A stretch of DNA of 64,000 nucleotides, taken from NCBI RefSeq assembly GCF_964204865.1, contig NC_135262.1, positions 13,888,001 to 13,952,000 of the forward strand, read 5' to 3'. Within the stretch, counting starts at the first letter, position 1; every line of letters starts with the position of its first letter. Position numbers and translations under genes: made by a program. Under the pieces are notes generated by a model that was not told the DNA's origin, did not search any database, and saw only the letters and a program-made list of their open reading frames with translations. Source of the stretch: Styela clava. Lineage: Eukaryota; Chordata; Ascidiacea; Stolidobranchia; Styelidae. Below, piece by piece: positions 26,965 through 63,333 of this stretch.

Positions 26965-28780
26965 TTATGGTTTCTCGGTTTCGCTTTTATCTGAAACTGT
27001 TGATACTTCTTTTATTTGTCCAGTTGCATAGTTATCGCTGATTGTCGTTCCGCTGGATATTTCCGGTTTATTCAGGTAAAATCTAACTCTTGCATAGCTT
27101 TTGCGAACCGGCCCTTGTTGTTGAGTGTTGAGGGCGGTCTGAGTTGTAAGTTTCTGCACAGAACCATATTCAATTTGTTTGTAATTAGCAAGTGTCAAAA
27201 AAACTACCAAAAAACTTATTAAAGCGCCTTAGTAATGTATCATCCGCAGGTCTATTCCATACATTATTACACTGAACTAAAATCGATCTAGTCATTATAA
27301 ATTGGACTAATCGTGTGTATTCAAAATCGGATAAATACTACTTTTTTAAAATTAATTTTCTCGCTGAAAAAAACTGTAGCTCAACTTGCGCTAAGCAAGT
27401 AAAAACGTCGTGTAAAACAAATATTACGATTTAGTAAAAATAATGAATTTTGAAACTCACAGTACAAATACATATGCTGAAAACGCATACCAATGTCAAT
27501 AGGACAACTGAAAAAGAAGAAAAGAATAGGAGATTTATAGAGTGAACAATATTTTCTAGCGGATTCCAGGAGTTGAGACGCTTTTGTCAATCACCTAACG
27601 ATACAAAAATTCTTCTAAAACACAAGGAGCATGCAAGTGGAGCGCCATCTTGTGGCGTTTGCGTTTGTTAATAAGCATTACAAAAATAAAATGTTTGCAG
27701 TTGTCACGATAAAAAAATCAGCCTAATATCATCAAAGTGAAACAGATATGACATCACTTCCAATTAACTATCATTGTATTTATTTCAAAATAGAATTCAC
27801 GACTGGGACTGGGCTAAAACAACGCTGCCACCATACATTTTAATAAAACTTACTTATTACTAATCCTACGACGACTATTGCAATCCAATTTGGATTAGCA
27901 CATGTGCATTCACACTTACAAATGCAGGTAAAATTTTTGTCGTCTTTAGAATTTTCCTCAATCTATTTAAAATAATATGTGTGAAAAGTAAGAAAATCCA
28001 AACGATTGAATATTCAAAATCGCATGCAATTATTTATTTTATTGACTCAACTTTAGAAAAGCGTAGAAATTTGTTTTGTAAGTTCAAACATTACAGAGAA
28101 ATAGCTCCCATATGTCAAAATGCAACAAAAAATGTCACATTAAAGTTTAATAAAAGTATGCCTGAAATATAAAATATTATATAATATAAATGATTAACTG
28201 GATTCGTGACTTAATCTGTTTTTAAAGTTAATAATTTGAAGGTTTTGTCGGGAACCTTGTTCGAGATTAACTCAAATGCAACTTGAAAAGCAAGGTCGCC
28301 GAATGACTCCGATTACAGATATCTGTGTAAAATGAAAATTCAGGTTCACGGGGTTTTAGAAATTTATGTCTTTGAAAATTAATCAAAATATTTATTATCA
28401 AATAACGTCATTTGGTGATTCACGACTCTTAAAATTTTGTCACGGGCATTTTAGAGCCTCTTTTCAATTATATTAGTTCATTTAAAAAAAGTTCTTTTGA
28501 TCAAATTATTTTCTCATAAAAACCAACAAAAATCGTTGATAATTAAAATTAGAGACTTTTTCTATTTTTGCTAAACTATACAAATGGAAGTGAATGAGCC
28601 AACTGTGGACATGGGCAATCAGCTTATAGTGATTTGAGTACCTCTGCTTTAAGGAAATTTTATGGGAATTCGTTACATTGCTTTCAATAAAATAAAATTC
28701 CGTATGATCAGAAAACAGTATCTTACCTCTTGACACCATGCTATACTTGCTACGAATAACACGATTACTAATTTCCGCAT
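26965..28780 (-). CDS. Small single-pass membrane protein A, 132 aa
   Basis: Four exons: 28780-28727 (54 nt), 27962-27854 (109 nt), 27507-27461 (47 nt) and 27153-26965 (189 nt). Exon 1 is a signal peptide (MRKLVIVLFVASIAWCQE) ending in phase 0 at a GTAAGA donor. Exon 2 gives an ectodomain of about 25 residues containing CICKCECTC, then the first half of the membrane segment (NWIAIVVVGLVI), ending in phase 1. Exon 3 completes the membrane segment and adds cytosolic-side cysteines (VCVFSICICT). Exon 4 is a polar tail rich in Thr, Ser and Gln. The alternating Cys run could bind metal or be acylated or disulfide-bonded; that is inference. The phase pattern is shared with genes B and D-H, which supports both the model and common descent. 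No named family was recognised. Confidence 0.72.
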
Positions 28781-32300: not shown

Positions 32301-32308
32301 TTCGAGTG

Positions 32309-34123
32309 TCAGACATCGTTTGCTAAAATCGCCCAGGGCGAGGCAGCATCCGCAGACTTCCTCTGAAAAATAATTTATAAATCACATGAATGTTGAATAC
32401 TTGATGTAAATAAAGGTCGATTGGGTTTCCGTTTTGGTCACATCCTTACATTGAGGAAGGTCTGTGGTTTCAAGTCTGTGGTTACTTTTGAAGCGTTTAG
32501 TATGTGAACCGAATCTCATTTTACACCCGCGACATCAAATTTCAAGAATTGAAACATTTTGTAAATATCATTTGTCGGCTTGGTCAAATTAAAAGGTTTG
32601 AGGTGCAAAGAATATTGTAGGAAGTAATGGGATATATAAAACTGATCAAAATTCAATCAAAAATGTGTATTGAATGCTAACGAAACTTTTTGTTTATTAG
32701 ATACACAATTAGGAAAATTATTTTCAAAATTACTAATATATTTACCGATAGACATTTTATGACAACAGCCGCAAGTAGAATACCTGAAAAATAAAAAAAT
32801 GAACATTAGAAGTTTGACACGTTGAGCTTGCTATCCGTATATTGGTCGTGATATGGTAAATTGTTAAAATTTGCTACAAACTTGATGAAAATTTTATTTA
32901 ATTGAAAAAAAAAAAGATTTTATTCTGAGAATTTGACTTCAGCAAATTCATATAGGCATTGTGTTTAAATATTTATGCATTAATTGGGATTAGTTTTAAA
33001 AATTTGTAGCAGCCAAACAGTCGGTGTATTATGCTGAGTTTTCAAAATTACGACCACGACTGATTATTGACCAGCTAAATTCATGCATTTAGTCGGTAAC
33101 ATCAACAATTTGAAGTTGTCCTATCGGTTTACCACTTTCCCATTATATGTTAAGTATATTTCATGTTTCATTTTTTGACAATTTCTAGTACTATATACTT
33201 ACATAATATTACGACTATTATAACAGCTTGCCATGGTACTACAATTATTGAGTCATTTCCTTTGCAATCACATTCATTATCACAGTTACATTTAGGCGTT
33301 TGGTTGGCTGTACTCGTCATAGCAGGAGTTGTAATCTTGATGTAAAAACAAGAGAGATCAAAAATATTTACCTTTACTGAAGATTGAATGAAACAACTAC
33401 AAAATAAATTAAAAATAGAATATAGTAAAGATCAAAATAGTTGTTCCATATATATCTCAATACCATGTTAGGGTACAAACGCACAGAAAAAGGATGGATT
33501 TCAATAAGAAATCGATAAAGATTAACAAACTTATCGGTAGCATGGGGCCTCCTAAAATAAAGTCATACGACCATTTGTTGGCGCTTCGTAGGTTTTCTTA
33601 CCCAAGATGACGTACAACCTGAACAACCCTAACCTGGTACCCATACTATGTTCAGGTTGTGCGCCATCTTGATACGAATACTTCGAGAGCACCCATTTGT
33701 TGAAAATTATAGTGTGACATAAAGTATTTCAAACTATACGGCTCGTGGCAAGGAAATGATAAAATGCAACATATATTGCAATAGTAAGCGGTAGACTTTT
33801 GCTTAAAATGTAAAAAAAGTACGAAAATTACCTATGATTACTGAAATTATAATTGGATCAGCTATCAATGAAATAGTCTGAGGATTTATACTTGTTAAAT
33901 TGGACATTATCAATTACAATTAAAATATTTGTTTGTGATGAATATTGCAAATTCTACCATTACGATTCTACATAGAATAATATTAATTAATAATGTAGTT
34001 CTATAATAGCATGTATTTGAACAGGAAGAAATCTTGCCCACTTACCGCCAATACAAAGCCATTCATCTGAAACAACATCAAGCAACGAATGAAAATCCAT
34101 ATTCTGTTTGCTACCTGAGCCAT
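32309..34123 (-). CDS. Small single-pass membrane protein B, 100 aa
   Basis: Four exons: 34123-34046 (78 nt), 33335-33203 (133 nt), 32783-32746 (38 nt) and 32362-32309 (54 nt), with phases 0, 1 and 0 at the three introns. Exon 1 encodes a signal peptide (MAQVANRIWIFIRCLMLF...) with a GCG|GTAAGT donor. Exon 2 has a Thr-rich start (ITTPAMTSTANQ), a CNCDNECDC cluster and the first half of the membrane segment. Exon 3 finishes it (ILLAAVVIKCLS). Exon 4 is a 17-residue tail ending in TGA. The 78-nt signal exon and the phase pattern match genes D, E and F on the other strand. A second exon with the same phases exists at 33877-33832 (separate entry). An alternative reading starts at the internal Met (33320) without a signal peptide; I prefer the version with the signal exon. 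Confidence 0.68.
33580..33693. mobile_element. Palindromic MITE, copy M3
   Basis: Inverted arms around CCAAGATGACGTACAACC and GTTGTGCGCCATCTTG flank CCTAACCTGGTAC. It is the reverse orientation of M1, in an intron of gene B. Confidence 0.6.
33832..33877 (-). other. Candidate alternative membrane exon of gene B
   Basis: 46 nt between a CCTCAG acceptor and a G|GTAATT donor, phase 0 to phase 1, exactly the phases of gene B exon 2. It encodes TISLIADPIIISVIIG, half a membrane segment with no cysteine ectodomain. Because both exons run 0 to 1, they cannot be used together in frame; they would be mutually exclusive. It could also be the first exon of another transcript starting at MSNLTS (33918). 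Confidence 0.4.
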
Positions 34124-37841: not shown

Positions 37842-39037
37842 TCATGGGTCTTTATCTTTATTATTGTTTTCCTCTTTCTTTTTTGTTCCAATTTGATCAT
37901 TAACTTCCATATCATTCATAATTATGTCAAATTTTTCTATTCGTTGTTGGTGTTGGAGGTCTTTTTCGGGGACTTCATTTTCTACAATTGCCTCAGTTTT
38001 GCTGTTTTTATGCTCATTCTCTGTGCCATTGGCTTTATTATTTTCTTTATTAACATTTTGTTTTTTGTCAGCATTGGCAATATTCAAATTGTGAGACGAC
38101 ATAGGTCTGGCAGGAACCACTCTTTGTTCAAATACACGATATTCATCGTATTTTCTTAATGATGGTTCGGAAATTTGACGACCGTCAATGTCGTAAAACC
38201 GTATTTCTCCTCCTTTCCTTCTACCTTCTATAACTCGAGATGATTTTTCGGGATCATATGCTGATTGTCTGCTGTATTTGTACTGAAAACAAAAATATTT
38301 TCAAGAACCATATAATTAATTCATGCGATTTGCAAAATGAAAGCCTTGTTAAGGCATTCGAAACACGACATAAAAATTTTGAAACAGAAAATCTAAGAAT
38401 AAATACGACTTAAACACATACAGATACGTGGAACTGATTTATACACCAGCTAAAAAGTGTATTCATACATCAAGAAGGCTGGACAACATATCATTATTGT
38501 AATTCATAAAAATATTTACTCACCTTGTAATTTGCATAAATTAACACAGCAATACAGAGTAAACCTGTAAAATAAATAGCCTCATTATAGAGGTAAACTG
38601 ATGCAGTATTAGCATGATACAATGATAGTGTCAATAATTTTTCTAATATTCAAAATGAAAATGATTTAACGAAGATATTTAGCAAAATTGGCCTAATCAC
38701 GTGATTGTGATTAATTAACACGAGGTGCTCTGACTAAATTTATAATAAATATTATTAATATATTAAAATAAATATTATTTGTATACGGAAATCTTAAATC
38801 ACCAATTTTGTTCTCAAATCGAATCTTGATAGAATGAGTGAACAAGTGAAAAACGCATAATATCATATGACTTTTCTCTTCTTTCATGTATTAGGTACCT
38901 GCAATAACAGCTGGAATAATAATCCCCCATTGCGTTGATGACGGATCATCTTCAACAACACATATACAAACGTTGTGACATATCTTTTTCAAGCCTTCGG
39001 TACAATTGGCATTGACAGGAGTTGTAAAAGTTGTCAT
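37842..39037 (-). CDS. Small single-pass membrane protein C with long charged tail, 206 aa
   Basis: Three exons: 39037-38899 (139 nt), 38564-38524 (41 nt) and 38282-37842 (441 nt). The N-terminus (MTTFTTPVNANCTEGLKKIC) leads to a CHNVCICVV cluster and the first half of the membrane segment, ending in phase 1 like its neighbours. Exon 2 gives LLCIAVLIYANYK. Exon 3 is a 146-residue cytoplasmic tail: basic and tyrosine-containing near the membrane (YKYSRQSAYDPEKSSR), then very rich in Asn, Lys and Glu. No signal peptide is visible in this model. Either the membrane segment acts as a signal anchor with the N-terminus outside, or a signal exon lies further upstream. The first option is favoured by a TATA-like TTATATAAAG at 39079-39086, which leaves a very short 5' UTR. 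The start resembles gene B exon 2 (TTPAMTSTAN), suggesting common ancestry. Confidence 0.7.
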
Positions 39038-39078
39038 TCTTGTGTGTTATCTGAGAGATTCATGATAAAGTTTTACTT

Positions 39079-39087
39079 TATATAAAA
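39079..39087 (-). promoter_or_regulatory. Candidate TATA box for gene C
   Basis: TTATATAAAG on the minus strand about 42 bp before the ATG at 39037. The spacing suits a TATA promoter only if the 5' UTR is very short. Confidence 0.35.
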
Positions 39088-39167
39088 TTATTTACAAAAA
39101 ATATTCAACATTATGTGAAAGTGAATGAAATAGTTTAAGGCCCTCACGCCAACCCGATGCTATAGAC

Positions 39168-39573: not shown

Positions 39574-39586
39574 CTATAGAATGGTG

Positions 39587-39772: not shown

Positions 39773-39779
39773 TAAAATA

Positions 39780-42900: not shown

Positions 42901-42910
42901 TTTTATACCG

Positions 42911-43225: not shown

Positions 43226-44247
43226 ATGCATGTACCTGATATAATAATATTCTTCACATTTTCATTTGCTGCATTTCTGTCGACATATTCAGCATCAACC
43301 ATCGTAAGTAGTAGAAGTAAAAACGAAAAAATGTTCTGAAATGGTATTTTCATTTTATATATAGTTCTTGAAACTTCAAAACTTCAAAAGCATAAAGAAT
43401 GAATATTTATATGACGGAATTTCAACTTCAAGCTTAAAGCTTACTTCACTTTTTTATAATTTTCTATATTTTTATAAACCCATTGAAACTTTTACATTTA
43501 TGGGGAATAATGAATTGTGCTTACCCACTATTAAAACTATATTGTTGGGTATATTTAAAAATTTGTACATAAATATTATACTTTCAGACTGCAAACCTGG
43601 ACAAATCCGAACTGAACAACTCTACAAACTGTACTAACAGTGCAAATTTGACTGATACCAAAAATTCAACTAGCTTTACGTGCCCAGAAGAAAGCAAAAG
43701 CCGTGCTTGGATTGCTGGTGTTGTTATTTTTATAGGTGAGAGATAGTAAAAATAGTAATATTTAATAAATTATTTTGTTTAGTTCAAATTTTTGAAGCTA
43801 TGGATCTTTATTTTTAATGTTGCTGAAACTCGCAAGGATATTATTAAAAAATCGAGTCTACCGCAACCTACGTCTAGTTTTTATAATAATGTTTTACAAT
43901 ATTTCTTAATTATCTTCACTATAATAAGTTTTAGATAAACGAAAAATCAAAATAATTTTAGTAAAAATAATAAGTCGTAGATTGCAATTGTAATGTATAT
44001 GCACCAACCAATTGCAATTTATCAGACCCATTGCATCAAAATATTTGCATTAGTAGTCTCATTGTAAAACAGTGCATATCGTCAAAAATTGAAAGTACAT
44101 GAGTTACCATTAGGCAAGTAGAAATGTACTATATTTTTTTCAGTGCTCTCCCTATTTGGCGGTATTTGCGGAAAAGGAAACGTATCCGTTTCAATTGGTG
44201 GCGGGGGTTTCGGTGCTGGAGGAGGGGACGGCGGGGGTTGTGGATGA
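43226..44247 (+). CDS. Small Gly-tail membrane protein D, 109 aa
   Basis: Three exons: 43226-43303 (78 nt), 43588-43735 (148 nt) and 44144-44247 (104 nt). Exon 1 is a signal peptide ending AAFLSTYSASTI at a phase-0 GTAAGT donor. Exon 2 is an ectodomain of about 40 residues with exactly two cysteines separated by 16 residues and five N-glycosylation sequons (NNS, NST, NCT, NLT, NST), then WIAGVVIFI, the first half of the membrane segment. Exon 3 completes it (VLSLFGGICG) and ends in a Gly-rich tail closing GGGDGGGCG then TGA. The poly(A) signal is at 44528. Its 3' UTR is homologous to that of gene F, so part of D and F share recent history. This is the shortest tail of the Gly class. Function is unknown; the layout suggests a heavily glycosylated surface stub. 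Confidence 0.8.
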
Positions 44248-45893: not shown

Positions 45894-45900
45894 TATAAAA
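45894..45900 (+). promoter_or_regulatory. Candidate TATA box for gene E
   Basis: GGGTATAAAACAGCTACTC, about 100 bp before the ATG. The orthologous position upstream of gene F (near 53460) reads GGGTACACAACAGCTAATC, so the TATA is lost there. Confidence 0.5.
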
Positions 45901-45996
45901 CAGCTACTCAAAAAAATCATTTGGGGCATACGAATTTATTTTCATATTATTTTTTCTCTTTGTATTTTGTTATTAAAGTTCAAGAAGCGTAACAAA

Positions 45997-47073
45997 ATGA
46001 GTATTTCTCAACTTATGATAATCTACACATTCTGTTTTTCTGCATTTCTTTTGACATATTCAGCATCAATCAGTGTAAGTACTACAATACGAATTCAATT
46101 TTTTTTTAATATATCTCACTTTCTGTGAGGAAATATTTTGATTGGATTTACTAGTCATAATCATTGACTCGGTTCTAGTTGGAAATCAGTCATCATTTGT
46201 CAAAGAATCTAACTACCTTGACGTGTCTGAATGGAATAACTCGCACATGTCATAATTTAATCACCAGTGAGACTTAACTGAGTGATAGAATCGACTTTGG
46301 GTCAGAATCGACGCTTAGATAACCATAAACAGATTTGACTACCACGCACTGCTTAGATTTTTATCATATTCCCAAGTTCTTCAAATTCCCATTGACTGCA
46401 AGTTTAGCCCGTCACCTTCTTATATTTGCCGAACATGATAATGGAACCGTTAAAATTTATAGGCCTGCGTCTTATGAGATCAGTGAATGAATCAGGTGAA
46501 ACTAATATAAAAGTGGAAGTGTACATAAATGTTAAATATATCAGAATTACCTTTGTTAGTTGTTGTCGTATATGAACTTCCAGTATATTAACCATAATTA
46601 TTGTTTTAACTCTAGACCCAAACACCAGATATCTCTGAACTCAAAAACTCGACGAAATGTGCTCAGGGTTCAAATTTAAACAACAAAGACGATAGAAATA
46701 ACTTCCCGTGCCCTGAAAAGACCAGACATCTGGGTTGGATTGTGGCAGTAATTTTTGGTGGCATAGTAGGTGAGAAAATGTACAATTTATAAAAGATATG
46801 CAATAATATGATATATATGTGCAATAAATAGTTGTAATATAGCAAGGTTCATTGGTTTCTATATATATTATGGGAATTTCGGCTTCACCATTAGATTGCG
46901 TTAAATCCTGTTTTGTTTTAGCTCTCTTCATAATTGTAATAAGTATGAAAAGATTAATTTGCGGGGGACTATCACATCCAGGAGGAGGAACAACAAGAGG
47001 AGGAGGTGGTGGAATAGGTTTTGGTGGCGGGGGGTTCTCTTCTGGAGGAGGAGATGGGGGTGGCTGTGGCTAG
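45997..47073 (+). CDS. Small Gly-tail membrane protein E, 127 aa
   Basis: Exons: 45997-46074 (78 nt), 46616-46769 (154 nt) and 46922-47073 (152 nt), with phases 0 and 1. Exon 1: MSISQLMIIYTFCFSAFLLT, a signal peptide; the open frame continues upstream but this ATG gives the same 26-codon exon as gene D. Exon 2: ectodomain starting TQTPDISELKNSTKC, a 16-residue loop to the second Cys, then WIVAVIFGGIV. Exon 3: LFIIVISMKRL finishes the membrane segment with a basic stop-transfer, followed by about 35 residues that are mostly Gly and end GGGDGGGCG. A poly(A) signal lies near 47378. Gene F is the closest relative. There is no enzymatic motif; it acts at the plasma membrane or in endomembranes by prediction only. 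Confidence 0.85.
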
Positions 47074-47830
47074 GAAGGATTTATGAGCATTAATCATGAT
47101 TAAATCGATTTTTAAATAATACCAGAATTCCAATATAGAAAATGTTTTTTTTGTGTCATCGTTCGACATATTATAATTGAAATGGAACTTTCGTCTAGCT
47201 TGTTTTGTAATACATCTTGTAGACTCATCGGAAGTTATCAATCATAACAATTTGCTTTAAAGAGAAGTGCCGAAACCCAGTGATTTGATATTTTTTCTTT
47301 CACTTGATTTTCATTGACTAAGTGTGCTAGACAAAAGCTTCAGTTGCGTTTATACTTTGATAGTGATTAATTGCTAAAATAAAACCTCCCATAGCAAGTT
47401 GAGTAGCAAGCACCCTTACAACGTATAGGTAAATAACAATCTTTGACAAAACAATAAAGTTTGTGAAATAGTTATTGGGTATAAGAGTTTTGAAGTGTAG
47501 AATCATTTATTTCGTTGCTCATGGGGTAATCTATAAAACTGAGTTTAAGGTGGGATATATAATCAATCAATTCTTATATCAAAAATATACTGAAACGTAT
47601 TCAATATTATAATATTGTTTTCAAACGTGACGTAAGGTCGGCGTCTAGATTTAGAGCCACCACTTGTTTTTATGTGTAATTCATTTTCTTTGTAAGTTAA
47701 TGTTTCAAAATTATTCCATAATACGTTCAGAATCCATAGTTTCTATCTAAAGTTTTATAACTCAACAAAGTCAGTAATGCATTGTCTGCCTGTGATATAT
47801 AATGCAACCTGGTCTGAAGCTGGTCAAAAA
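47074..47830. other. 3' flank of gene E
   Basis: Likely 3' UTR to about 47400, then AT-rich sequence with nothing recognised. Confidence 0.4.
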
Positions 47831-48089
47831 ATTGTGTGTAGGGCGGTATCTGAAATTAAAGATAGACATTTAAAACGAAGTTGAAATTAATCATTACTGC
47901 CAAAAGGGCATTACTGACGTTCTTTAAAAAATGAAACGCAATGCTCACGTAAATAATTTTATTCATAAGTAAAGATTTGTCAAAAATGGCTCTGATAGTC
48001 GGTGTCTTTGATAGTTGGAATTGGTGATTGTGATATGGTATTTTTCCAGTAGTTTCATATTCCATATTAAAACAGGCCCATAGGAACCC

Positions 48090-48570
48090 AGGATCTCCAC
48101 TGTTATATGAAGCGGCAGCACTCTAGTAAACCGTTGCCATCAGCGCAAAGTTGTACCTTAAACACCTGTACCTGTACTGCAGTGACCGGGATACCGCATC
48201 TCGTTAACGGCATAATATAATAAAATATGTTCACTAAAATTCCTAAGGCTTACCCAGTTTATAAATTAACGAGATGAAAAATGGGTTGTTTAATTAAAAT
48301 AGTATTTGCTGTTGTCTTCTGTTACCAGGTAGTTTTCGAGAAAATGGCAAAAAAAGTGTGGAAAAACTAGAAAGTATTCAACGATCGGCGCGTTTTCGCT
48401 GATGCCATGTGAATGAAACACCAATCCTGACTTTTGGTGAAACGCACATTACCAGGATGACAGCATAACCCACGTAAAATTTTTTAACCAGATTGACCCA
48501 GCAGTAAGCTACAACTAGACACACAGACAGAACGACCGAGAATAGGGGTCTGCTAGCGCGGATATCCAGA
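48090..48570 (-). mobile_element. GGATCTCC-family element, degraded copy
   Basis: It begins CCCAGGATCTCCACTG and ends near GCGGATATCCAG. The interior ATGTGAATGAAACACC...GCACATTACCAGGATGACAGCATAACCC is the reverse-strand relative of the repeat block near 49620-49690 in the larger element. It lies in the same position relative to the relic of G as the copy at 57578-57806 does to gene G, so the insertion predates the block duplication. Confidence 0.55.
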
Positions 48571-48639
48571 GAATATTATTATCATTTTTTTTTATTAAAT
48601 GGAGAAATGAAAAGCACTCCGCAAAATAGCTTTTCGTGT

Positions 48640-49433
48640 TGAACAATGGAAAATATGTCAGTCAAATGTTGTGAAAAAACAACCTCCAAGAGGAAAGTTC
48701 CACAATAAAAACAGTTAAAAGTATATAAGATTAAAGATGTCTGAAACAATTATTCGAGTAAGAGTAAACACTACAAATTGCTGTAGATAGAATGATTCAC
48801 TTTATTTTACCAAGCTATGCGGTATGTTTATTCAACTGTTTACAATAATAGTGCATTAAATAGAATATGATAGTACCAGCTTCTAAGATACATAAAACGA
48901 CAAAAAGTATTTTCTTATATAAAATAAATCGATTTATTTATTTTTATCCTGCATTTTCAAGATATATGAGTTAGAATAGGAAATCAAGTCAAGACTGTGA
49001 CAGAATTTAGGAAGCTTAAAAAATCTACACATGCTGTTTCGTTATCGTATTCGTTAGGTGATGTCAGTATCAGAATGAATGAACTAAATTGTACCAGCAC
49101 GTAAATTATAAAGGTAAAGTACACGAGAGAGGAATTTTCTCAATAAAAATGTGTATAAATCTGATTAAAGTGTAGTGAACAAAACTATTGCATGTACTAA
49201 CTACTAACTATTGCATATCGCATGAACTAACTTTAACAAGACTGTAGCAAAATGTAATGCAAAATGTAACCAAATCAGTATTTTGTGACAAATTGGCCAC
49301 AATTCAACAGAAAAATATTGGTCAAAGATTAGTAAAATATTGTCCTTCATGTGCGAACATATATATTGCTTTTTAAATTATGCTTTTTCTTTATTTGGAG
49401 TCAGAACGCTACAAATACATTAAAAATGGGGTT
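48640..49433 (+). pseudogene. Relic of gene G (G')
   Basis: 48640-49080 matches the upstream region and first exon of gene G (58360-58800). The signal exon equivalent at 48975-49065 begins AGGAAATCAAGTCAAGACTG where G has ATGGAATCAAGTCAAGACTG, so the start codon is lost, and frameshifting changes follow. The remaining exons of G are absent: after about 49100 the sequence jumps to the region just upstream of gene H (match near 61565). This is an internal deletion of a G/H pair. Confidence 0.7.
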
Positions 49434-49471
49434 ATGTTTTATGCAGTCGGAACCATCTCAATAACAACGTT
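49434..49471 (+). pseudogene. Start of gene H copy (H'), cut by a transposon
   Basis: ATG TTT TAT GCA GTC ... ACG TT matches the first 38 nt of gene H exon 1 (61711 onward). After ACGTT the sequence switches to transposon DNA and resumes gene-H-intron-like sequence at 52122 (TACTTATTTACTAAGTACT, compare 61808). The rest of the signal exon and its donor are missing, so the copy cannot encode the protein. Confidence 0.75.
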
Positions 49472-49559
49472 TAATAATTGGATCTCCGCTGTATAGGAGA
49501 CCCTTATTGTCAGTCGTTCTGTTGGATCTCCGCTCTATAGGAGACCCTTATTATCAGTC

Positions 49560-50320
49560 GTTCTGTCTGTCTGTCTGTCTGTCTGTGTATCTGTCTGTCT
49601 GTCTGTTTAGATGTAGCGTCTTAATGGCTGGACCAATCTGGATGAAATTTTTCACATGGGTTATCCTGTCACCCTAGTAATGTGCGTTTTATAGAAAGTC
49701 CAGATAAATGTTTCGTTTCCATGGTAACAACGAAAAACGCTCCGATCGTTATGAAATTTCTATTTTTTTCACAGTTTATCGCCGTTTTCTCGCCAACCAA
49801 GTCGAAAATTAAAATTCCAAGAGCGCTTCCTTCCGCATGGCAAAGTACTCTTTCCAATAAGTCGTCTTTGGTCTCGATACTTCATAAACTGGAGAAGCCT
49901 TAGGGATTTCAGTGAACATAATTTCCCCATTTAGTCACAGTATATCAGTCACGTGAGTATGTCAACGGAACGCGCAGCGTTTGAAATGAACTCAACGGAA
50001 CTGGTGAGCCGGTGCAGGTGTTCTTGATATACGGAATTATTATTTGCTTGAGATTTGATGTACTTCTCGCTGTTAGTGGGTGGTCTGTCTGTCTGTCTGT
50101 CTGTGTATCTGTCTATCTGTCTGTCTGTCTGTTTAGATGTAGCGTCTTAATGGCTGGACCAATCTGGATGAAATTTTTCACATGGGTTATCCTGTCACCC
50201 TAGTAATGTGCGTTCGAAATGAACTCAACGGAACTGGTGAGCCGGTGCAGGTGTTCTTGATATACGGAATTATTATTTGCTTGAGATTTGATGTACTTCT
50301 CGCTGTTTGTGGGTGGTTCA
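49560..50320. repeat. Duplicated (CTGT)n-linked blocks
   Basis: The CTGT microsatellite followed by TTTAGATGTAGCGTCTTAATGG occurs at 49560 and 50085. The adjacent AACTCAACGGAACTGGTGAG block occurs at 49988 and 50220. These are internal direct repeats of the transposon, apparently produced by slippage or segmental copying. Confidence 0.7.
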
Positions 50321-50511
50321 CCCAAACGCTGGCTACAGTTTTTTTAACTATTTAAGTCTATAAATTAGGATTGCTATATCCGAATCAAACTGGTAAGCAG
50401 ATATCGTTGTATAAATATGATAAATAAATAATCCTATTAAACCGTGAAGTACCGGGGAAAATGTTGAGTCTTGCATGTATATATGTTCCTTCAGCTTAAG
50501 TTGTAATCATA

Positions 50512-51565
50512 ATGCCTAGGCGAAAGAAAACTATTAAGCGATTATTGGAAGCACAAACACGCCAAAATTTGGACGAATGTTGCAGCAGCAGTCAGATTGA
50601 AGATGACCCGCATAGCGTACAGTCTACTACTTACTCGCAACGTTACTGACGTTACACAACATTTCAGTAATAGAATGAAAGTTATTTTTAGACACTTGCA
50701 AAAACCAGGTCTGTTGGGCAAATACAAAGTTTCTGACTATTTCTTCCGAATCGAATTTTAGATGCTAGGTGCACCACATGTCCATTCTTTATTGTGGCTG
50801 CAGGATGAAAATGGCAAAATTCCCCCTTGACACTTGCAAAAACCAGGTCTGCTGGGCAAATACAAAGTTTCTGACTATTTCTTCCGAATCGAATTTCAGA
50901 TGCGAGGTGCACCACATGTCCATTCTTTATTGTGGCTGCAGGATGAAAATAGCAAAATTCCCCCTCGTTATGATTCAGAAGAGTCTCGATCTGCTTGTGA
51001 AGCATTTATCGATTCTGTGATAGCTGGAAAACTCCCTCAGGGTAACTCTGATATTCTGGACACAGTGTCTACTTTTCAAAGACATAGCCACACTTTTACA
51101 TGTCGCAAGAAGAGTCGTAAAATTACTATTCATTCCGATGAAGGCCATGGTGTTAATGATTGTACAATAGAAAGACAAAGAATTCATTTAAACACGTGCA
51201 GATTCAAATTTCCCCACTTTCCAATGCCTAGAACAATGATCCTTGATGCACCAAATGAAAATGTTGACCCAGAAGATCGCAAAATATGGAAGAGCGATTA
51301 TGTCATGCTTAGAAAATGTATTTTACGTCAAACTCATTCTGATCGAGACACTCAATGTAATCAAGAGTTTTTGACCCTAACATTTAATGATTTCCTTCAT
51401 GCAGTGGGCCTAACGGAAGAAGCATATTATAATGCGCTTCGGGCATCTCTTGCTGAGAATAAGTGTGGATCGCAGGTGTTCTTAAAGCGTGACTGTTGTG
51501 ATTTGTGGACCAACAATTACAACAAGAACATTCTGGAAATACACCAAATGTCCTGGCTACCCTGA
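50512..51565 (+). pseudogene. Helitron-type Rep protein, broken
   Basis: A start-like frame 50512-50649 (MPRRKKTIKRLLEAQ...) stops early. Further on, 50829-51565 encodes FRIEFQMRGAPHVHSLLWL, which holds the HUH-type His-x-His of the Helitron Rep N-terminal region, then HTFTCRKK, CRFKFPHFP and VFLKRDCCDLWTNNYN, all typical of that domain in order. A 138-bp segment containing the HUH region is tandemly duplicated (50691 and 50829); the upstream copy has a TAG where the other has CAG. The frame ends at 51565 before the catalytic Tyr region, and the PIF1-like helicase is absent. In intact elements this protein nicks and replicates the transposon; this one cannot act alone. Confidence 0.75.
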
Positions 51566-51885
51566 GTTTCAGAAAACTCTGATTGTGATGAAAAAGCTTC
51601 ATCCATTTCACCCTTTTTAGTGGGACTTTTGAGGCCTGTTATAGTTCTGTTCATTACTGTTATTTTAGCGTTCCGTGCTTTTATTACACGCTCCTGTCGT
51701 TTGTAACTGCTTTCCATTCTTTTAATCAAAGCTGCAATACGAGCTGCAGACGCTGATACTTGTTGTGTTGCTAAAATAGCGTACTGGCTGTCGTACCCTT
51801 TTTTACGAAGGTGGTCGGCAAGTGCTTCTACGGAATCTTTTATGAATTCTGCATCACGTTTACAATCTTTGAAATACGCCGTCAT
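51517..51885 (-). CDS. Transposon-borne small protein, 122 aa, unknown
   Basis: A full ATG-to-TAA frame inside the transposon, convergent with and slightly overlapping the Rep remnant. The sequence is helical and charged (SVEALADHLRKKGYDSQYA, then RIAALIKRMESSYKRQERV), suggesting a coiled coil, with a Ser/Glu-rich C-terminus. It could be a second transposon protein or captured host sequence. The last dozen codons lie antisense to the Rep frame and may be fortuitous. I do not recognise it. Confidence 0.4.
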   Translation of the reverse strand: MTAYFKDCKRDAEFIKDSVEALADHLRKKGYDSQYAILATQQVSASAARIAALIKRMESSYKRQERVIKARNAKITVMNRTITGLKSPTKKGEMDEAFSSQSEFSETQGSQDIWCISRMFLL

Positions 51886-53560
51886 TGCCCCGCAACAAAT
51901 AATCGTCAGCTAGTGCAAAACCTACTCGCCTCTCGCCTATTTCTTGCGAGGAAATTTTCATGAATTCACTTCCAAGCGCACAAATTAAAGAGATTTAAAT
52001 CTGAACGAAGTTAGGCCGACCACTAAAGTGCTACAGAGACTAAAATAAATTGGATCCTCGCGATATACTGTATGCCGCGGGCCTGGGTGTCAGCGGAGAT
52101 CCTGGACGCCTACCGGCTTGTACTTATTTACTAAGTACTAAAAGAAGTTTTTTTTATAGTCTTTACTTTGTTCATTGCCGGAAAAGCCATAATAAAATTT
52201 TTTTTAAATTGTAATTTAAGAGTTTTTATATAAAGATTCTTCAAAAAACATAAACAATTATTGCTTTGTAATAAAACTTTAATTTATTTTCAAGTTGGCA
52301 ACCATGACGTTCAAGCTTAAAAAAAGATACCTGCCTATTCGAATAAATCAAACTAGATATAACATGATTTATCTAAGAAGCACGCACCATGTAAATAAAA
52401 TAAGATATTACTCTCGTTGAATTTAAACTATTCAATAGATAGGACAGTAAACTTTGCCATCATTTCTAAGATTTTCAGGTCAAAATTGCCCGTACTATTT
52501 CATAATTTTTATTTCAAAATCAATGTGCAATTTTGTGATTTGTCATATTATTTCCTATAACTACATACTTTAATTTCGCCATTGCTATCAACACACTACA
52601 TATTGAAAGCACTTAGTGAGTTGGGAAATTACCTTAACAGAGAATTCAGTTTTGACAAAACATTGTAATCGATACCTCAAGCAACTGTGATGGGCATTTC
52701 CTAACAATTATGTCTAAGCCGAGAGATTTTGAATTGAACAGAAACAGTACAAAATCAAGACAGCGGAAAAAATAAACATGTATGTAAAATGATAATTTTT
52801 TGTATCATATATTGAAGCATTTTTCTTATCTTTGTGATATTTCATGAAACGAGTCCGTTGTAATACTAACCTAATGGTAAAAGTGCGCGTATTTTTTATC
52901 TTTGATTGAAACCTTCTATTGGAAAAGAAATGGTCGCAAGATGATCAAAAAATCGAACTCTTCTAAACTGATGGTGATTTTAATAGCCAAGGAAAGTCGG
53001 GTTTAGTAAAAATATAATTGGCTATGAATATTGCCGGACAAAATGTTAGACGTTTAAAATGAATTCCATTTTTCTAATATTTAAACATCACAATACAATT
53101 TTAAACGAACTAAAGATCGTGACAAAAAGTGTGACGTTATATATTGAAATAACATGTGATTAATGGATAGGCAAATGCTTGGTATACTACAGGCAATCAT
53201 TTAGGGTGTACAACTAACATAAATGAGATTGAGATAATCGCATGTAGCAGACGATTAAATAACAACAGGCAAGATACCATGCATGTAGTAATATTTCGTC
53301 AAGTATTAATGAAATACTTTCTTGCTTTAATTTGATTCCAGTGTTTTCTACGCGTCGCAAACTTAAGAGATATATTGTTAGAAAAACTTTAGTGAAATAT
53401 ACCAGAAGAATTAAATAAAAAATTACCGTTTTGACATTTAGTACGCAGTTTTCTAAGTAGGGTACACAACAGCTAATCAAAAAACTATTTGAGGCTCACG
53501 AATTTAATTTCATTGTATTCTCTTTGTATTTTGTTATGGAAGTTGAAGAAGCGTAACAAA

Positions 53561-54708
53561 ATGAGTATTTCTCAACTTATGATAATCTACACATTCTGTT
53601 TTTCTGCATTTCTTTTGACATATTCAGCATCAAACAGTGTAAGTACTATTATACGAATTTTATAACTACCTAAAATATTTTAATTGGATTAAATAGCTGT
53701 ATTGGAAAGATCAAAATCATTGACTCGATTCGAGTTGAAATGGAGTCACCATTAATCAAAAACTCTAAGTACCTCGACGCGTTTGAATGGAATAACTTGA
53801 ACATGTCATCATTCATTCGCCAGTGAGACTCAACTTAGTGATAGAATCGACTTCGGGTCGGACTCGTCACGTAAATAATTGTACTATAGACCTGACTCAC
53901 GGGTTTAAATAATTCTACCAAGCACTGTACTTACACAATTACATTTTAAATCATATTCACAATTTCTTCAAACACCCATAGACTGCCTGTCATCTTCCCA
54001 TATTTGCTGTCCATGATAATGAAATCGTTCAAAGTTACGAGCCTGCGTCTTACAAGATCAGTGAATGACGACTAATATAAAAGTGGAAGTGTACATAACT
54101 ATTAAATATATCCGAATTTCCTTTGTTAGTTGTCGTCGTATTTGAACTTTCAGTATATTAACCATAAATATTGTTTTAACTCTAGACCCCAAAACCAGAT
54201 ATCTCTGAACTTAAAAACTCAACGAAATGTGCTCGGAGTTTAAAATTAAACAGCACTGATAATAGAAACAGCTCCACGTGCTCCGAAAAGCCCACAGATC
54301 GGGGTTGGATTGTAGCTGCAGTATTTGGTGGCATAGTAGGTGAGAAAAAGTACAAATTATTGAAGATATGCTAAATTTATGTAAACGAGGTAAACCGAAT
54401 AACGAATGGCGTTAGTTTATTAACAGACACTTTGTAGTTATATTTTTTTGCATTGTTCTATTGTTTAATAACTAGATGTAACACAGCAAGGATTTCTATA
54501 CATATTGGGGATTTCGAATTATCCATAAAATTGCGTTAAATTCTATTTTCTTTTAGTTCTTTTCATAATTGCGATAATATACCAAGTAATATGTAACAAA
54601 GAACTATCAGATTCAGGAGGAGGAGGAACAAGAGGAGGAGGTGGTGGATTGAGTTTTGGTGGCGGGGGGTTCTCTCCTGGAAGAGGAGGCGGCGGGGGTT
54701 GTGGATGA
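53561..54708 (+). CDS. Small Gly-tail membrane protein F, 127 aa
   Basis: Exons: 53561-53638 (78 nt), 54186-54339 (154 nt) and 54557-54708 (152 nt), the same lengths as gene E. Exon 1 differs from E by one nucleotide (SASNS for SASIS). Exon 2 keeps PDISELKNSTKC, has a strongly different 16-residue loop, then GWIVAAVFGGIV. Exon 3: LFIIAIIYQVICNKELSDSG, then a Gly/Arg/Ser-rich tail ending GGGGGCG and TGA. Several N-glycosylation sequons are present (NST, NST, NSS). The poly(A) signal is at 54979. The TATA box seen before E is mutated here, so expression may differ. The pairing with E (near-identical signal exon, divergent loop) is the strongest sign of selection on the ectodomain in this window. 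Confidence 0.85.
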
Positions 54709-54984
54709 AGATATTTTGATTTGGGTTTTTTATAAATATGAAACAATATAATTATCATCAAGCACAGTTTTATTCACACCTCTTTATGTATTTTCTAAAT
54801 GCTTTAATCAATGTATAATCAACGTTCCAATTTAAACTAGACGAGTTATAAAAACGGTAGAATCTATATATCATTGGTCATTCCGTACATTCTCATTTTA
54901 AACATTACTTCATTATTATTCGTTTTGTGTGCATCATAATGACATTTACACAATTTACATATGATATATTTTCACTTCAATAAA

Positions 54985-57900
54985 ATGATAAAAATAGGGA
55001 ATTGTGTGTAAATTGGTGTTTGGTGCGAAAGGCAGGGATAGGTATATGTATGACCACCGCCGTATATATCCACAGCAGTTTCCATAACACAGACACATTT
55101 ATGCCTGCCACACGAATATAATACTCAAAACAATATAGCAATTTGAATATTGTTTTTTTTGTTTCGGGACACCCCATGATGTTCAAGCTTATAGAAAAGA
55201 TAACTGCTTATTTCAATAAAGTCAAACCAAATATATCATGATTAATATAAAAAACACGTTCCATGTAAATAAAATAAAATATTACACTAATTGAATTTGA
55301 ACTATTCAATAGAAAGAACAGTAAACTTTGCCAGCATTCCTATGATTTTCAGGTCAAAATTGCTTGAACTAGTTCACAATTTTAAAATAAATGTGCAATT
55401 TGGGTATTGTAAAATTATTTTCATACCTAAATCCTTTGATTTCGAAATAAATTATTCTTACAAAAACAAGAATTTGCAATTTTGGATGAAATAGTAAACG
55501 TGAATAAAATGAAAAATGTCATCGACATGCAATCAACACAATACTGATTGATAGCCTGGAAGTTAATGAGTAGAGAAATAACCTACACAGATTATTTAGT
55601 TTTGACATAACCTGTCAATCGATACCACGAGCAACTGTGATGGGGCATTTCCTAACAATTTTGTCCAAGTCGAGAGACTTAGAACCCAGAACAATACAAA
55701 ATCAAGACAGCGGAAATATAAAATTATAATTTTAGGTAGCATTGAAACAGATTTTTTTTTCTATGCCGCATTTCATGAAACGAGCGCGTTGAAAAACTAA
55801 CTTGAAGGTACAAGTGCGCGTATTTCGTCTTTGATTAAAACTTCTTGTTGGAAAAGAAATGGTCGCAAGATGATCAAAACTATTTAAAACTAATTGTGCT
55901 TTTACTAGACTAGCATAGTCAGGTCTAATATTTATATATTTGGTTATGAATATTGCCGGACAAAATGTAAGACGTTTAAAATGAATTCTATTTTTCCGAT
56001 ATTGAACATCACAATACCATTTGATCTAAAATCGTGACAAAAAGTGTGACGTCATATATTAAAATGACATACGACTGATGGACAGCCAGACTCAGTATCG
56101 ACAATCATTGAGCGTGTACAACGAATGTAAATATCTTTATAAAAATGTCAAAGCCAAGTTGAGAGACATAAAATAAAAATGTTTGTAAGCTAACAATTGA
56201 AGAACAGATAGATACCATACCAGCAGTGAAATTTATTCAAGTTACTGAAGTTATTTAATATTATGAAGTTACTTTATTACTTTAATTTGATTTCATTATG
56301 GAAAATTAACAACATATGATTTACTAGGTATCGCTATTTTAAAAGATATATTGATAGGAATACTTTAATCAATTATACCAGGAAAATTAAATAAATTGAC
56401 GTTTTGACATTTAATTAATGTCATATTATAATTACGTATGTGTCAAGTCTTGCGTCCTGGTGGACATTGGCGTTAGTTTTTTTTTATTTATCGCAGAATT
56501 GTGGTGCGTTCTGTTCGACGAACTCGAAAGATATTTCGCGATTATCGGGGATGAACGCTGATCGCAATTATAGGAATGAATTTGGAGCCTAAATTTGCAA
56601 ATTATTTTCATTTTGATTGCTTTCTTTCGTATCGGCCTTGATTGTCTTTATCGTCAACGTAAAATAAATACCAATAACTTTAGTACTGGCTCAGGGACTC
56701 ATTTTATGTTTGTATTTTTGTTTATGTTATGTTTTCCTTAAGTAAGATTTCGGCAATGTCGTCAATGCGTATCCGCAAATAATTATATTAAAATTGACTT
56801 AATGTCATTACTACATATTCAATTTAGTATATATCTATGTGTCCAGTAATCTTTGTACTGTTATTTTATTAAATACTTGTATTGATGTTTCAAAATTTAC
56901 AAAACGGCGCACTAAACTTGATATTCCCGCGACATTGGCGCACACTATGCTCATTTAAACTTTGAGACAGTATCATAGACACTGCAAATTAATGAATTAA
57001 TGAATCTCTATAACACAAATAATACTATCAGTTTAGACGTTTTTGTTTATTATTGGAAACTGTGTCTAGATTCTTGTGTGGTCTTCAGAAATTCGCGAGT
57101 GTTATGTCATTAATGATTCTTTGATTTGGCGACCCGCGAGTGTCATGTCCCCGACCCGTGTTACCAGATATTCGAATCGTAAACTGCTATTCTAATATTC
57201 GATTTGATATTGGAATAAAGTATATTATGTGAAGTATACCGAAATCAGGACTTAGCTGGTATTTAAAGTTTGGTATGTTTGCATCCCGGAACGAATTTCG
57301 TCACGTGAAAGAGGAAAAAGGTTTGGCAGGCCTGGGCAGGGTATCTGAAATTTCAGAATTGCCATGGAAACGAAGTTGCCATCAACCATTACCACCAAAA
57401 GGACATTACTGACCATCTTTAAAAAATGAAACGGAATGCATACGTAAATAATTTTATTTATAAGTAATTGCTTGTCAAAATGGCTCTGATAGTTGTGTTT
57501 GATAGTTGGATTTATTGATTGTGATATGATATTTTTCCAGTAGTTTCATATTCCATATTAAAACAAACCGGTAGCCACGCAGGATCTCCATTGATATATG
57601 AACGATCTTCTAACGATCGGCGCGTTTTTCCCTGATGCCATGTGGTGAAACGCACATTACCAGGGTGACAGCATAACCGCGTAAAAAATTGGAACCAGAT
57701 TGTCCCAGCTGAACGCTATAGCTAGACACACAGACAAACAGCCAGACGAGATAGCACAACTGAGGATAAGGATCTACAAGAGAAAAGGGTCTACGGAGAT
57801 CCAGGGAATACAAAAAAATTTACGTTCATAGTTTTATGTGGCTGGACTGAACCAACATATCCGAAGATGCCCAATCAAATCAAAATTGCAAGTTCCACAT

Positions 57901-58360: not shown

Positions 58361-58648
58361 AAGTGGAAATTTCCACAAAAAAGTTAGAAGTATATAAGAT
58401 AACAGTTGTCTAAAACAATTATTTGAGTAGGAGCAAACAGTATCAATTGTTGTAGATAGAATCACTTTATATTAAGCTGTGTGGTATGTTTAGTCAGATG
58501 TATGTTTAGTCAGACAGTAATAGTGCTTTAGATTAAATAAGATAGTACCAACTTCCAAGATAATAAAAAAAAAACACCAAAATATTATCTGATATAAAAT
58601 AATTTCTTTTTTATCCTGCTTAGCTTTGCAAATAGTATAAGTCAGAAT

Positions 58649-60267
58649 ATGGAATCAAGTCAAGACTGTGGCAAAGTTTTGAAAGCTAAAACAATCTACA
58701 CATTAATTTTTGTTATATTTTTATCGACATATCCAGCTTCAACTATTGTAAGTATCAGAATAATTTGTGAAGTTCTATTACTAGATTTGGACTCTACAGA
58801 TTAGGATTAAACTAAATTGTATCAGAACGTAAATGATAAAGTTATAGTATATCAGAATGAAATATTTTCAATAAATATTTGTATAAATCTGATTAGAGTA
58901 TATTGAACACTGTTCCATTTTTAATGAATACATAAATACACATATTCTGACGTTAATGGCACTATAACAAGAAACTTTTTTTTTTAAATTCAAGACGAAT
59001 GATGTAGCCTACCTTAATAGGTATTTTGTTTTAGCCATAAGGAATTTGATAAACCTTAGAAATAATTTTTAAATAAACATTTATACAGAGAGAAGAACAT
59101 TTAAATGCATCCACACAACAGAATTCAACAATGTGTGTACAATGCACAAATTCAAATTGCACAAGGAATAGAAATGAATCTATGTGTCAAGGTACAACTA
59201 AGTATCGCGTTTGGATTGCAGGCGCTGTTGTTGGGGGTTTAATCGGTTAGTAATAAAAAATGTTATAGCATTAGCAATTTAAGGATTTAGAAAAATATAC
59301 CCAGAAAAGAAATCTAAGTGTCAATAATTTTTGAACATACAAAAATCTTTAACCTGACATTTTCAATAGAAATGCCATTTTTGTTTCAAATTACCATGTT
59401 GTGGATTGAATGTCGAGTCAAATTGATCACATTCGTTAGTCTAAGAGATAAAATAGTGTTATTATGTAATAAAAACGCCTCTCATTTGTAGATTCTCATT
59501 TTCAGCTCTCCTCGTGATAATTTCTGCTTTAAAAAACTGCCGTCAAGTGAGTACAAATGTTTTTTGAACTTTCTTTAAAGCTTCATAAAATACAACAAGT
59601 AAAATAAATAGAAAATTTTCAACAAGTGTTTATGATTATACATTGTTTTCAACAAAACTATTATATTGAATTCGGTGCGAGTTTCACGCCCTTACCCCAA
59701 CCAGGAATTGAATAATTTATTAAGAATCATATTATGAAATAAAATAATCATATTCGTCCGGAAATAAAACGATATTTTGCAAATACATTTGTAACTGCTT
59801 TTACCTATACTAGTTTGAAAATACGGCGCGCAACACTTACAAAGATTCATAATTGATAATAGTGTTAATAACTAATAGTATTTTATAATCCAAAATAAAT
59901 ATTTGGATATTTCAATAAAAAGAAATTGTCATTTTAACAGGTAATTTGTTCAAAAAGTGATATACGATTAGGAAATTCAGGAAACTCAGTTGTCCAGTTT
60001 TGGGCACCGAGCAATGGATATAACAACAGAACGCAAAATCACACCTTGCAATCGAGTTCAACTACAAATAATCACTTTGCAGCAGACAGCACAAGCAATT
60101 GCAACGTAATAAGCAATCATTGTTTGCCTCATGGTGGAAACTATGATGTTGGTTGCCATTCAGGAGGATTCGAATCGAGTGGAGGCGGAGGTGGCGGATG
60201 CAGTTTTAGTGGCGGAGGAGGATGTGATTCTGGGGGCGGGGGTTGTGATGGAGGAGGGGGTTTTTAA
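58649..60267 (+). CDS. Gly/Cys-tail membrane protein G, 207 aa
   Basis: Four exons: 58649-58747 (99 nt), 59089-59245 (157 nt), 59506-59546 (41 nt) and 59941-60267 (327 nt). Exon 1: a hydrophilic start (MESSQDCGKVLKAK), then a hydrophobic signal or anchor ending FLSTYPASTI, related to gene D. Exon 2: an N-glycan-rich ectodomain with four cysteines, C-x2-C-x4-C-x8-C; first to last are 16 residues apart, as in D-F. The membrane segment spans exons 2-3 (WIAGAVVGGLI / ALLVIISALK). Exon 4 is a 108-residue tail: Ser/Asn/Thr-rich, then Gly blocks punctuated by Cys (GGGGCDSGGGGCDGGGGF, stop). A TATA-like TATATAAG lies near 58391 and AATAAA at 60458. It is the largest member of the plus-strand family. 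Function is unknown. Confidence 0.83.
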
Positions 60268-60463
60268 ATAATAGGAACTGAGTTTACTGTACAAATATAT
60301 TTTAAAACTACAATGTAGTTTATGCAATGTAAATATTTACTTATATTTTAACCCTATTAGAAAATCCGCATTTGTCTCAATGTTTAGTACTGAAACATGT
60401 TGCAATTTCTCTCGATATTTTGTTTTATTGCTACATTTATTAACAGCTTTTATTTTGAATAAA

Positions 60464-61690: not shown

Positions 61691-61710
61691 TACATATATA
61701 AAATAGGGTT

Positions 61711-63333
61711 ATGTTTTATGCAGTCAGAACCATCTCAATAACAACGTTATTTCTAGCATTGGAAATTACAGCAAGTAGCAATGTAAGTATATACAATTTA
61801 ATAATACTTATTTACTAAGTACTGAAAGAAGTATTTGCAGTCTCTATTTGTTAATTGTCGGGAAGAGACATATTAAAATTTTGCCTCCGTTGTGAGTTGT
61901 AACAATGAAATCTTTTTATGTAAGATTATTTCACTAAACTTGAAAAAAATGTATTGCTTGGTCATAAAACTCCAATAATTTCAAGTTGCTTACAATAAGT
62001 TTAATGCACTCTTATTCATAATATATTCATTATAATTCACATGCATCTTGGCACTGCTGAGTCATAGTCTGAAATGGTTATGAATTCATTTTTAAAATGC
62101 GCTCCTATGCACAGTGGTAAAATCCTTTTTATTTTTTATTTTTTCAAAATTCTTGGTTAATTAGGTCTTGTCTGTGTTATATATTTTTTAGAAAAACAAA
62201 GCAGGTGGAGTTTATACCATAAATTCAACGCATTGTGAATATTGCTACAACACTACTTGTAAAATAAGACACGATGCCATATGTGGTAACTACAATCTAT
62301 CAGATAACAAAGCTATTGGGATAGGCATATCAGTCGGAGTTGTTGGTAAGCACGAAACACAAAATTAAAATTATTTTTAACAAGGAAGTAATTTGAATTG
62401 GAAAACACAATGGATGTGTTCATACATTAAGTTTGAAGTCGCTTCATGTCCACAACCTGCTATGCTCTGATAACGCAAAACTAGACGTGATTTAATTTTG
62501 GTTATTATTAGAGTAGAGAATTGATAGATAATCTTTTACTAAAACAGCAAATAACATATAGCATTGGCTTCGTCTTGATTTTTTTTTCCGATTTCCAATT
62601 TATTCTTCTGCAAGTGATTTCAAATTTTAAAGAAGAGAAAGGGAGTTGGTTGCAATAAAATGTCAAAATATGAATTTCGTAATTATGCTGTTAAGTAAAA
62701 TAACCTAATATAAAAAATTAATATTGCTGAATTGTCAAAGTAAAGTATGTTTACTGTTCATAATATTCACGAAACAATATAGCAGTACTGTCCCACAGGC
62801 TTTAAAAGTCTTCCGCTGCAGTTAACAATCTGAGACAACCCAATCAGAATAAGCCCAAACCAATGAGAAAATCCTGGTGAATCTCAAATAATTTACTCGC
62901 TTTAGAGGCGCACGATTCAAATTTAATTTTGTGATTGTGTTTTCTGTTTCTACTCATTGCTTTCTAGTATATTTAAAAAAGAACTTTTTTTTCCAGAGCG
63001 CTATTGTTATCATGTGCTTTTATGTTTCAGGTTTTATTCTGATCGTCTGGCTATGTAATGTGAGTATGTATTTGTTCTTAATTTGTAAAGGCATGTAGAA
63101 AAGGTTATTAATCATCTATAGAAGTAAGGCAGTATGATGGATTGATATCGAAACATTTTCAGCATTATACTTCACTCGACTAACTTACAAAATTCAAATT
63201 AAAAAAATATATTGTTAACTTAAGATACAAAAAATATTAGATAAAATTCGATTAATAAGATATACGTTCTTATATACAGAAGCTACTTTCAAGAAAGAGA
63301 ACGAACACACTTCCAAACACCCAAGATTTGTAA
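61711..63333 (+). CDS. Small membrane protein H with short basic tail, 102 aa
   Basis: Four exons: 61711-61782 (72 nt), 62192-62345 (154 nt), 63031-63059 (29 nt) and 63280-63333 (54 nt), with phases 0, 1 and 0. Exon 1 signal peptide: MFYAVRTISITTLFLALEIT, ending SSN|GTAAGT. Exon 2 ectodomain: INSTHCEYCYNTTC, then the fourth Cys in DAICGN, giving C-x2-C-x4-C-x7-C, almost the spacing of gene G; then AIGIGISVGVV. Exon 3: FILIVWLCN. Exon 4: KLLSRKRTNTLPNTQDL and TAA. There is no glycine tail; the 17-residue basic tail has the same length and exon size as that of gene B on the opposite strand, linking the minus- and plus-strand sets. A poly(A) signal lies at 63489. Confidence 0.78.

Follow-up and report, generated by a model that had tools for sequence, protein, structure and literature searches.

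A 36.4-kb array of eight genes for small predicted membrane proteins in Styela clava, with a phase-1 intron splitting each transmembrane segment

The window, a 64,000-nucleotide stretch of the Styela clava genome (contig NC_135262.1, positions 13,888,001 to 13,952,000), contains eight genes for small proteins, here called A to H, which all lie within 36.4 kb. We rebuilt the eight genes from the raw sequence with a script check and obtained outer coordinates of 26965..63333, exactly the ends that a first-pass annotation had given to an eight-gene array, with the stop codon of gene A ending at 26965 on the minus strand and that of gene H at 63333. Genes A, B, and C are on the minus strand and genes D, E, F, G, and H on the plus strand, and all modelled introns in the eight genes are of the GT-AG type.

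Gene A (26965..28780, minus strand; 132 aa) consists of a signal exon ending in phase 0 (28780-28727), an exon running from phase 0 to 1 (27962-27854), one running from phase 1 to 0 (27507-27461), and a tail exon (27153-26965), and its ectodomain carries five cysteines in the arrangement CxCxCxCxC. Gene B (32309..34123, minus strand; 100 aa) has exons at 34123-34046 (78 nt), 33335-33203, 32783-32746, and 32362-32309, and shows the ectodomain pattern CxCxxxCxC. Gene C (37842..39037, minus strand; 206 aa) is built differently at its 5′ end: Its ATG lies inside the exon that encodes the transmembrane (TM) segment (39037-38899, ATG to phase 1), a signal exon is missing, and two exons follow (38564-38524, phase 1 to 0; 38282-37842, tail). 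On the plus strand, gene D (43226..44247; 109 aa) has three exons (43226-43303, 78 nt; 43588-43735, phase 0 to 1; 44144-44247, phase 1 to stop, with a Gly-rich tail), as do gene E (45997..47073; 127 aa; 45997-46074, 78 nt; 46616-46769; 46922-47073) and its tandem copy, gene F (53561..54708; 127 aa; 53561-53638, 78 nt; 54186-54339; 54557-54708). Gene G (58649..60267; 207 aa) has exons at 58649-58747, 59089-59245 (phase 0 to 1), 59506-59546 (1 to 0), and 59941-60267 (tail), and gene H (61711..63333; 102 aa) at 61711-61782, 62192-62345 (0 to 1), 63031-63059 (1 to 0), and 63280-63333 (tail). The predicted cytosolic tails of D to G (43226-60267) are Gly-rich with a few cysteines, and those of D and E end in GGGDGGGCG.

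For six of these models, a protein record was found. Gene C as the query returned a single protein, LOC120332648 of Styela clava, identical across all 206 residues and with the same start, and queries with D to H (whose glycine tails had been masked or removed) and with A plus B returned five further proteins, all from Styela clava. By exact comparison, the models of B (LOC120332990), C, F (LOC120333345), G (LOC120333015), and H (LOC120332917) equal the annotated proteins letter for letter. These identical proteins are probably the annotation of the same assembly, so that they inform on splicing rather than on variation, and they are not RNA data. Gene D differs from the UniRef/nr entry LOC120333227, of the same species, at 4 of 109 residues (D5E, T11I, S44R, and S77F, the last also listed as residue 78), and may thus be strongly polymorphic within Styela clava. 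No record for A or E was found among the matches to the D-to-H and A-plus-B queries.

The eight genes have a common exon-phase layout. Upon rebuilding, seven of them (A, B, and D to H) showed, as had been proposed, a signal-like exon that ends in phase 0, followed by an exon that runs from phase 0 to 1 and terminates inside the TM segment, and all eight showed a later exon beginning in phase 1 and completing the TM segment, which bears out the central claim of the first-pass annotation that a phase-1 intron splits the TM in every gene (signal peptides and TMs were assigned by eye and by hydropathy). Gene C, which had been said to fit only from its second half, indeed follows the layout from exon 2 on. 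In A, B, C, G, and H, the TM-completing exon measures 29-47 nt and ends in phase 0, with the tail on an exon of its own; in D, E, and F, it continues through the tail to the stop codon. In B, D, E, and F, the signal exon is 78 nt long, in agreement with the earlier count, and in A, G, and H it measures 54, 99, and 72 nt. A Trp encoded in exon 2 marks the start of the TM in all genes but H, and the split falls 8-10 codons downstream of this Trp.

We evaluated how often such a layout is encountered by chance with a scan that required an acceptor followed by a polar, two-Cys stretch and half a TM running up to a donor, and then the second half of the TM past a later acceptor. The scan left the phase free and covered all nine exon-phase classes, with hydropathy and Cys thresholds that were chosen after the genes had been seen, and in both its strict and its relaxed version alternative acceptors of one donor were collapsed into one. 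Gene C is invisible to the scan because its exon lacks an acceptor. The strict version yielded five donors (A, D, E, F, and H), all of class (0,1) and all in the array, and two matches in six random windows, neither of class (0,1). The relaxed version yielded 11 donor/phase combinations, seven of which were of class (0,1) and corresponded to the spliced second exons of A, B, and D to H, the other four being alternative sites within exons of A, B, E, and F; gene A was thus picked up by both scans. For G and H, the top-scoring partner exon differed from the modelled exon 3. In 40 dinucleotide-Markov windows, the relaxed scan gave 35 matches spread over the nine classes, with two in class (0,1). 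Two unrelated TM genes of the same genome, the only two examined, both have an unsplit TM: TMEM9 and the downstream neighbour, about 29.6 kb beyond the window end, where by eye the whole TM is contained in one exon, entered in phase 1 and left in phase 2.

At the level of sequence, D to H are one family. They have in common an invariant N-S-T-x-C motif with a second Cys 15-16 residues further on (spacing by eye), and in shuffle tests with the TM excluded, all six pairings within D to G, as well as the pair G and H, reached p ≤ 0.002, with p = 0.04 for D and H and no significance for E and H or F and H. The earlier statement that almost no residues are conserved is therefore too strong for these five genes. 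For A, B, and C, we found no convincing similarity to one another or to D to H. In the same tests, A, B, and C showed no significant similarity to one another, and among the 18 pairs that include A, B, or C, only A and E fell below 0.05 (p = 0.019), which is about what is expected by chance. A likeness between the tails of A and C, both of which contain an RFY stretch, was rejected (p = 0.24). A profile of D to H matched exon 2 of A at E = 0.97, second among the frames that are not members.

What links A, B, and C to D to H is mainly the exon grammar, plus the shape and position of the TM. Published intron phase shares are about 5:3:2, with an excess of phase 1 reported at signal peptides (PMC7259759, PMC1626468), and introns in tetraspanin genes are described as rarer within TM segments (PMC2650405). 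Taking shares of 5:3:2 and D to H as one reference, we find a probability of ~8e-4 that A, B, and C would all match the D-to-H phases by chance, or ~3e-3 without the signal intron, with the matching TM position and the adjacency of the genes left out of the count. Shuffling into a symmetrical intron is not open to an exon of class 0-1, a further consideration that would favour descent. We conclude that the phase match favours common descent of A to C with D to H, short of proof.

The alternative is that two or more unrelated sets, D to H on the one side and A, B, and C on the other, lie next to each other with phases that are coincident or convergent. We consider this unlikely, albeit with an appreciable share of the probability. 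It would account for the lack of significant ectodomain similarity of A, B, and C, for the tail result and the marginal profile match of A exon 2 given above, for the location of A to C and D to H on opposite strands, and for genome searches in which the second exons of A and B matched neither one another nor D to H. It has to contend, however, with the low probability of a chance phase match, with signal introns in phase 0 where the papers cited above report an excess of phase 1, with the rarity of introns in tetraspanin TM segments, with a split 8-10 codons past the Trp from A through G, and with the fact that everything lies inside 36.4 kb. Of the earlier proposal of one superfamily of eight, the shared phases and the position of the TM split thus hold up, whereas kinship in sequence extends to D to H only.

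Further members were sought in the window, downstream of it, and in the whole genome. With three profiles, no other frame in the window scored below E = 0.4. In the 40 kb downstream of the window, the phase-agnostic scan found nothing, and the profiles gave seven matches at E < 1, the best of which (E = 0.014) corresponds to an exon whose TM is unsplit; all others are at E ≥ 0.2. Searched against the 377-Mb Styela genome, exon 2 of G recovered its own locus and those of F, E, and D, besides two matches at E 2.4 and 2.6; exon 2 of B recovered its own locus and two matches at E = 7.5, and exon 2 of A its own locus alone. The reach of these searches is that of close kin, as G also missed H. Close paralogues of A, B, and G are hence likely confined to this single locus, and distant members may be located elsewhere.

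Outside this species and among known domains, we obtained no relatives. Searches with C, D to H, and A plus B gave no protein from outside Styela at E ≤ 1 (0.1 for C), in a procedure that relies on shared five-residue words and that distant relatives could escape. No Pfam model exceeded its curated cut-off in any of the eight gene models, with A, B, F, and H giving sub-cut-off matches and C, D, E, and G giving none at E ≤ 1. The six LOC names are absent from open-licence PMC papers, and such a gene layout is undescribed in the titles and abstract beginnings among the matches listed from these papers. As far as tested, this agrees with the first-pass statement that no family with this layout has been described. 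Two individual likenesses were set aside. Gene A has a Cys-rich juxtamembrane stretch and a weak match to TMEM9 (PF05434; 17.6 bits against a cut-off of 28.6), an identity that we rejected as sub-cut-off, and the other seven models are unlisted for PF05434; the Styela TMEM9 match scores 113.6 bits and, in contrast to gene A, is a single uninterrupted 227-aa frame with an unsplit TM, perhaps a retrocopy. Residues 33-81 of C match the TM and juxtamembrane stretch of neurexin-1 (E 0.0011), which we attribute to TM composition, since these 49 residues are largely TM and C has no Pfam domain.

Self-comparison of the window (matches above 80 bits, the best 26 of 41) revealed a block duplication between ~44 and 62 kb. 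Duplicated blocks of flanking and intergenic DNA surround D, E, and F on the plus strand (44195..56412), with 44550-45864 resembling 55129-56412 and 44949-46801 resembling 52576-54371. Two relics are located in the interval between E and F, next to repeats. The first, on the plus strand at 48681..49181, is G-like and comprises flank, a decayed exon 1 (48982-49045, 81% against exon 1 of G), and intron-1 sequence. The second, on the plus strand at 49271..49471, is H-like and retains 5′ flanking sequence along with 38 nt from the start of exon 1 (49434-49471, 97%), after which it is interrupted by repeats and the intron-1 match picks up at 52121-52297. In neither relic were exons 2-4 matched. The same interval holds, at 49480-52120, a Helitron-like N-terminal fragment (26.8 bits against a cut-off of 28.9), CTGT-rich stretches, and short direct copies that are 97-98% identical among the matches listed.

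Other features of the window lie upstream of the array. A second set of tandemly duplicated segments, with 76-83% identity among the matches listed, occupies 3810-9029, and an open frame of 261 aa that has a PPPY motif close to its end and no Pfam match is located at 14330-15115 on the plus strand. At 21362-24231, also on the plus strand, four open stretches each contain an SRCR domain (87-106 bits, far over the cut-off) and probably represent exons from at least one gene of the scavenger-receptor type. Rfam gave nothing at gathering scores within the window, and ARAGORN found no tRNA in it.

The tandem copies E and F allowed us to examine how these genes diverge. Exon 1 is 98.7% identical between them (77/78), exon 2 81.8%, and exon 3 75.0%, and the two introns are 79.5% and 77.6% identical. 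The introns contain nine indel events in 798 columns, whereas the coding sequence contains none in 384 columns, where the intron rate would predict 4.3 (P = 0.013). Outside the signal, dN/dS is 0.87 (95% interval, 0.49-1.71); by part, it is lowest in the TM (0.60, a difference that comes from few sites), 0.88 in the ectodomain, and 1.1 in the tail. The reading frame has thus been maintained, with residues changing nearly freely and at about the speed of the introns. A dN/dS near 1 with so wide an interval does not demonstrate positive selection, and relaxed constraint fits equally well. Either constraint or gene conversion may lie behind the near identity of the signal exon. We also considered that some members (A, E, or more) might be pseudogenes or mis-modelled, given that A and E are missing from the protein matches, that two relics lie nearby, and that C lacks a signal exon. 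Yet the frames are open, the splice sites are GT-AG, the phases are the same throughout, and the E/F coding columns are free of indels, and we regard this explanation as improbable.

The products of all genes except C would be type I membrane proteins 100-207 residues long, and the topology of C may differ. The predicted plan comprises a signal peptide, presumably cleaved, a Cys-bearing stub of 25-41 residues with sequons, an uncharged TM that usually opens with Trp, and a divergent tail. Counted by eye, the ectodomains contain five cysteines in A, four in B, C, G, and H, and two in D, E, and F. The 294 ectodomain residues contain 19 N-glycosylation sequons, whereas shuffled versions contain 8.0 on average and none of 5000 shuffles reached 19. 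D, F, G, and H together account for 15 of these sequons, and the remaining four are spread one each over A, B, C, and E. The stubs would be glycosylated and held by disulphides. Within 18 residues around the split (nine on either side), no TM in the eight genes contains a charged residue. Small-xxx-small spacing occurs in six of the eight TMs and a Cys at the inner TM edge in seven (by eye), features through which, with possible S-acylation of the Cys, the helices might associate or sit in membrane domains. AlphaFold models gave a mean pLDDT of 53 for C (one sequence; ≥70 in only 28 of 206 residues; a helix over the TM) and of 52 for F (four sequences; ≥70 in only 26 of 127 residues; helices over the TM and the signal), a quality too low for fold searches.

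These features bring several known systems to mind. Members of the STMC6 group (Shisa and Shisa-like proteins, WBP1, VOPP1, CYYR1, TMEM92) have a signal peptide, a short six-Cys ectodomain, one TM, and a disordered tail. ITAM adaptors such as DAP12, DAP10, FcR-gamma, and CD3-zeta likewise combine a minimal Cys-containing ectodomain with one TM and a short tail. A role as signalling or trafficking adaptors of either kind would be consistent with this overall plan and with the single YxxPhi motif found in the tails of A and C. The proteins of the array differ, however, in that their ectodomains have two to five cysteines rather than six, that acidic TM residues are absent near the split, and that none of the eight tails contains an ITAM, ITIM, YxxM, or PPxY motif, the last of which is described for STMC6 proteins (PMC11399591). 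With no Pfam match over cut-off in addition, we deem an adaptor role very improbable.

The main rival to a surface role of the stubs is that the proteins act through the TM as regulatory subunits of the FXYD or KCNE kind, where the helix would bind a larger channel, pump, or receptor and the ectodomain and tail would be secondary. The tiny size, the single TM, the Trp at its start in seven of eight, the small-xxx-small spacing, and the low dN/dS of the E/F TM all speak for such a role. Conversely, that dN/dS difference comes from few sites, the sequon excess is unexpected for a TM-acting subunit, and no Pfam model of such families is matched over its cut-off. On balance, we think a regulatory-subunit role rather unlikely, but a serious contender.

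The reading that we prefer, tentatively and at somewhat less than an even chance, is that of a fast-changing family of minimal type I membrane glycoproteins, restricted to this lineage and evolving by tandem block duplication and loss, with A to C descending from the same ancestor as D to H. CD52, CD24, and the glycophorins offer a parallel as very short peptides that chiefly carry glycans, a parallel whose sequence side was probed by Pfam only; CD52 and CD24 are GPI-anchored, unlike the TM proteins predicted here. The stubs could act as cell-surface glycan carriers or as ligands in a fast-changing interaction, not as ITAM- or PPxY-type adaptors, with haemocytes, epithelia, or gametes as candidate surfaces. 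This functional step is one that we infer from composition alone. Fester (350 aa) and FcoR (520-610 aa), which belong to variable ascidian families of clustered genes for membrane proteins, carry Ig and sushi domains (PMC12065747); no Pfam match to either domain was obtained in the eight models at E ≤ 1. In its fullest form, the proposal would be that all eight genes derive from one gene whose intron grammar is the sole lasting signature and that they make up a styelid-specific, rapidly diversifying glycan-stub recognition locus of haemocytes, epithelia, or gametes that is not based on Ig or lectin domains. Such a scenario we hold to be a long shot.

Tandem orphan families are common. We place the array as a new orphan family among the tandem, fast-evolving, lineage-restricted small membrane proteins. 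It provides an apparent case of a conserved intron that cuts TM codons and has outlasted nearly all sequence similarity. The combination of a phase-0 signal exon with a TM that is split in phase 1, 8-10 codons past a Trp, can serve as a search key for relatives that sequence searches miss. If the guess at the function is true, the array would add a minimal glycan-stub class to the surface proteins of ascidians.
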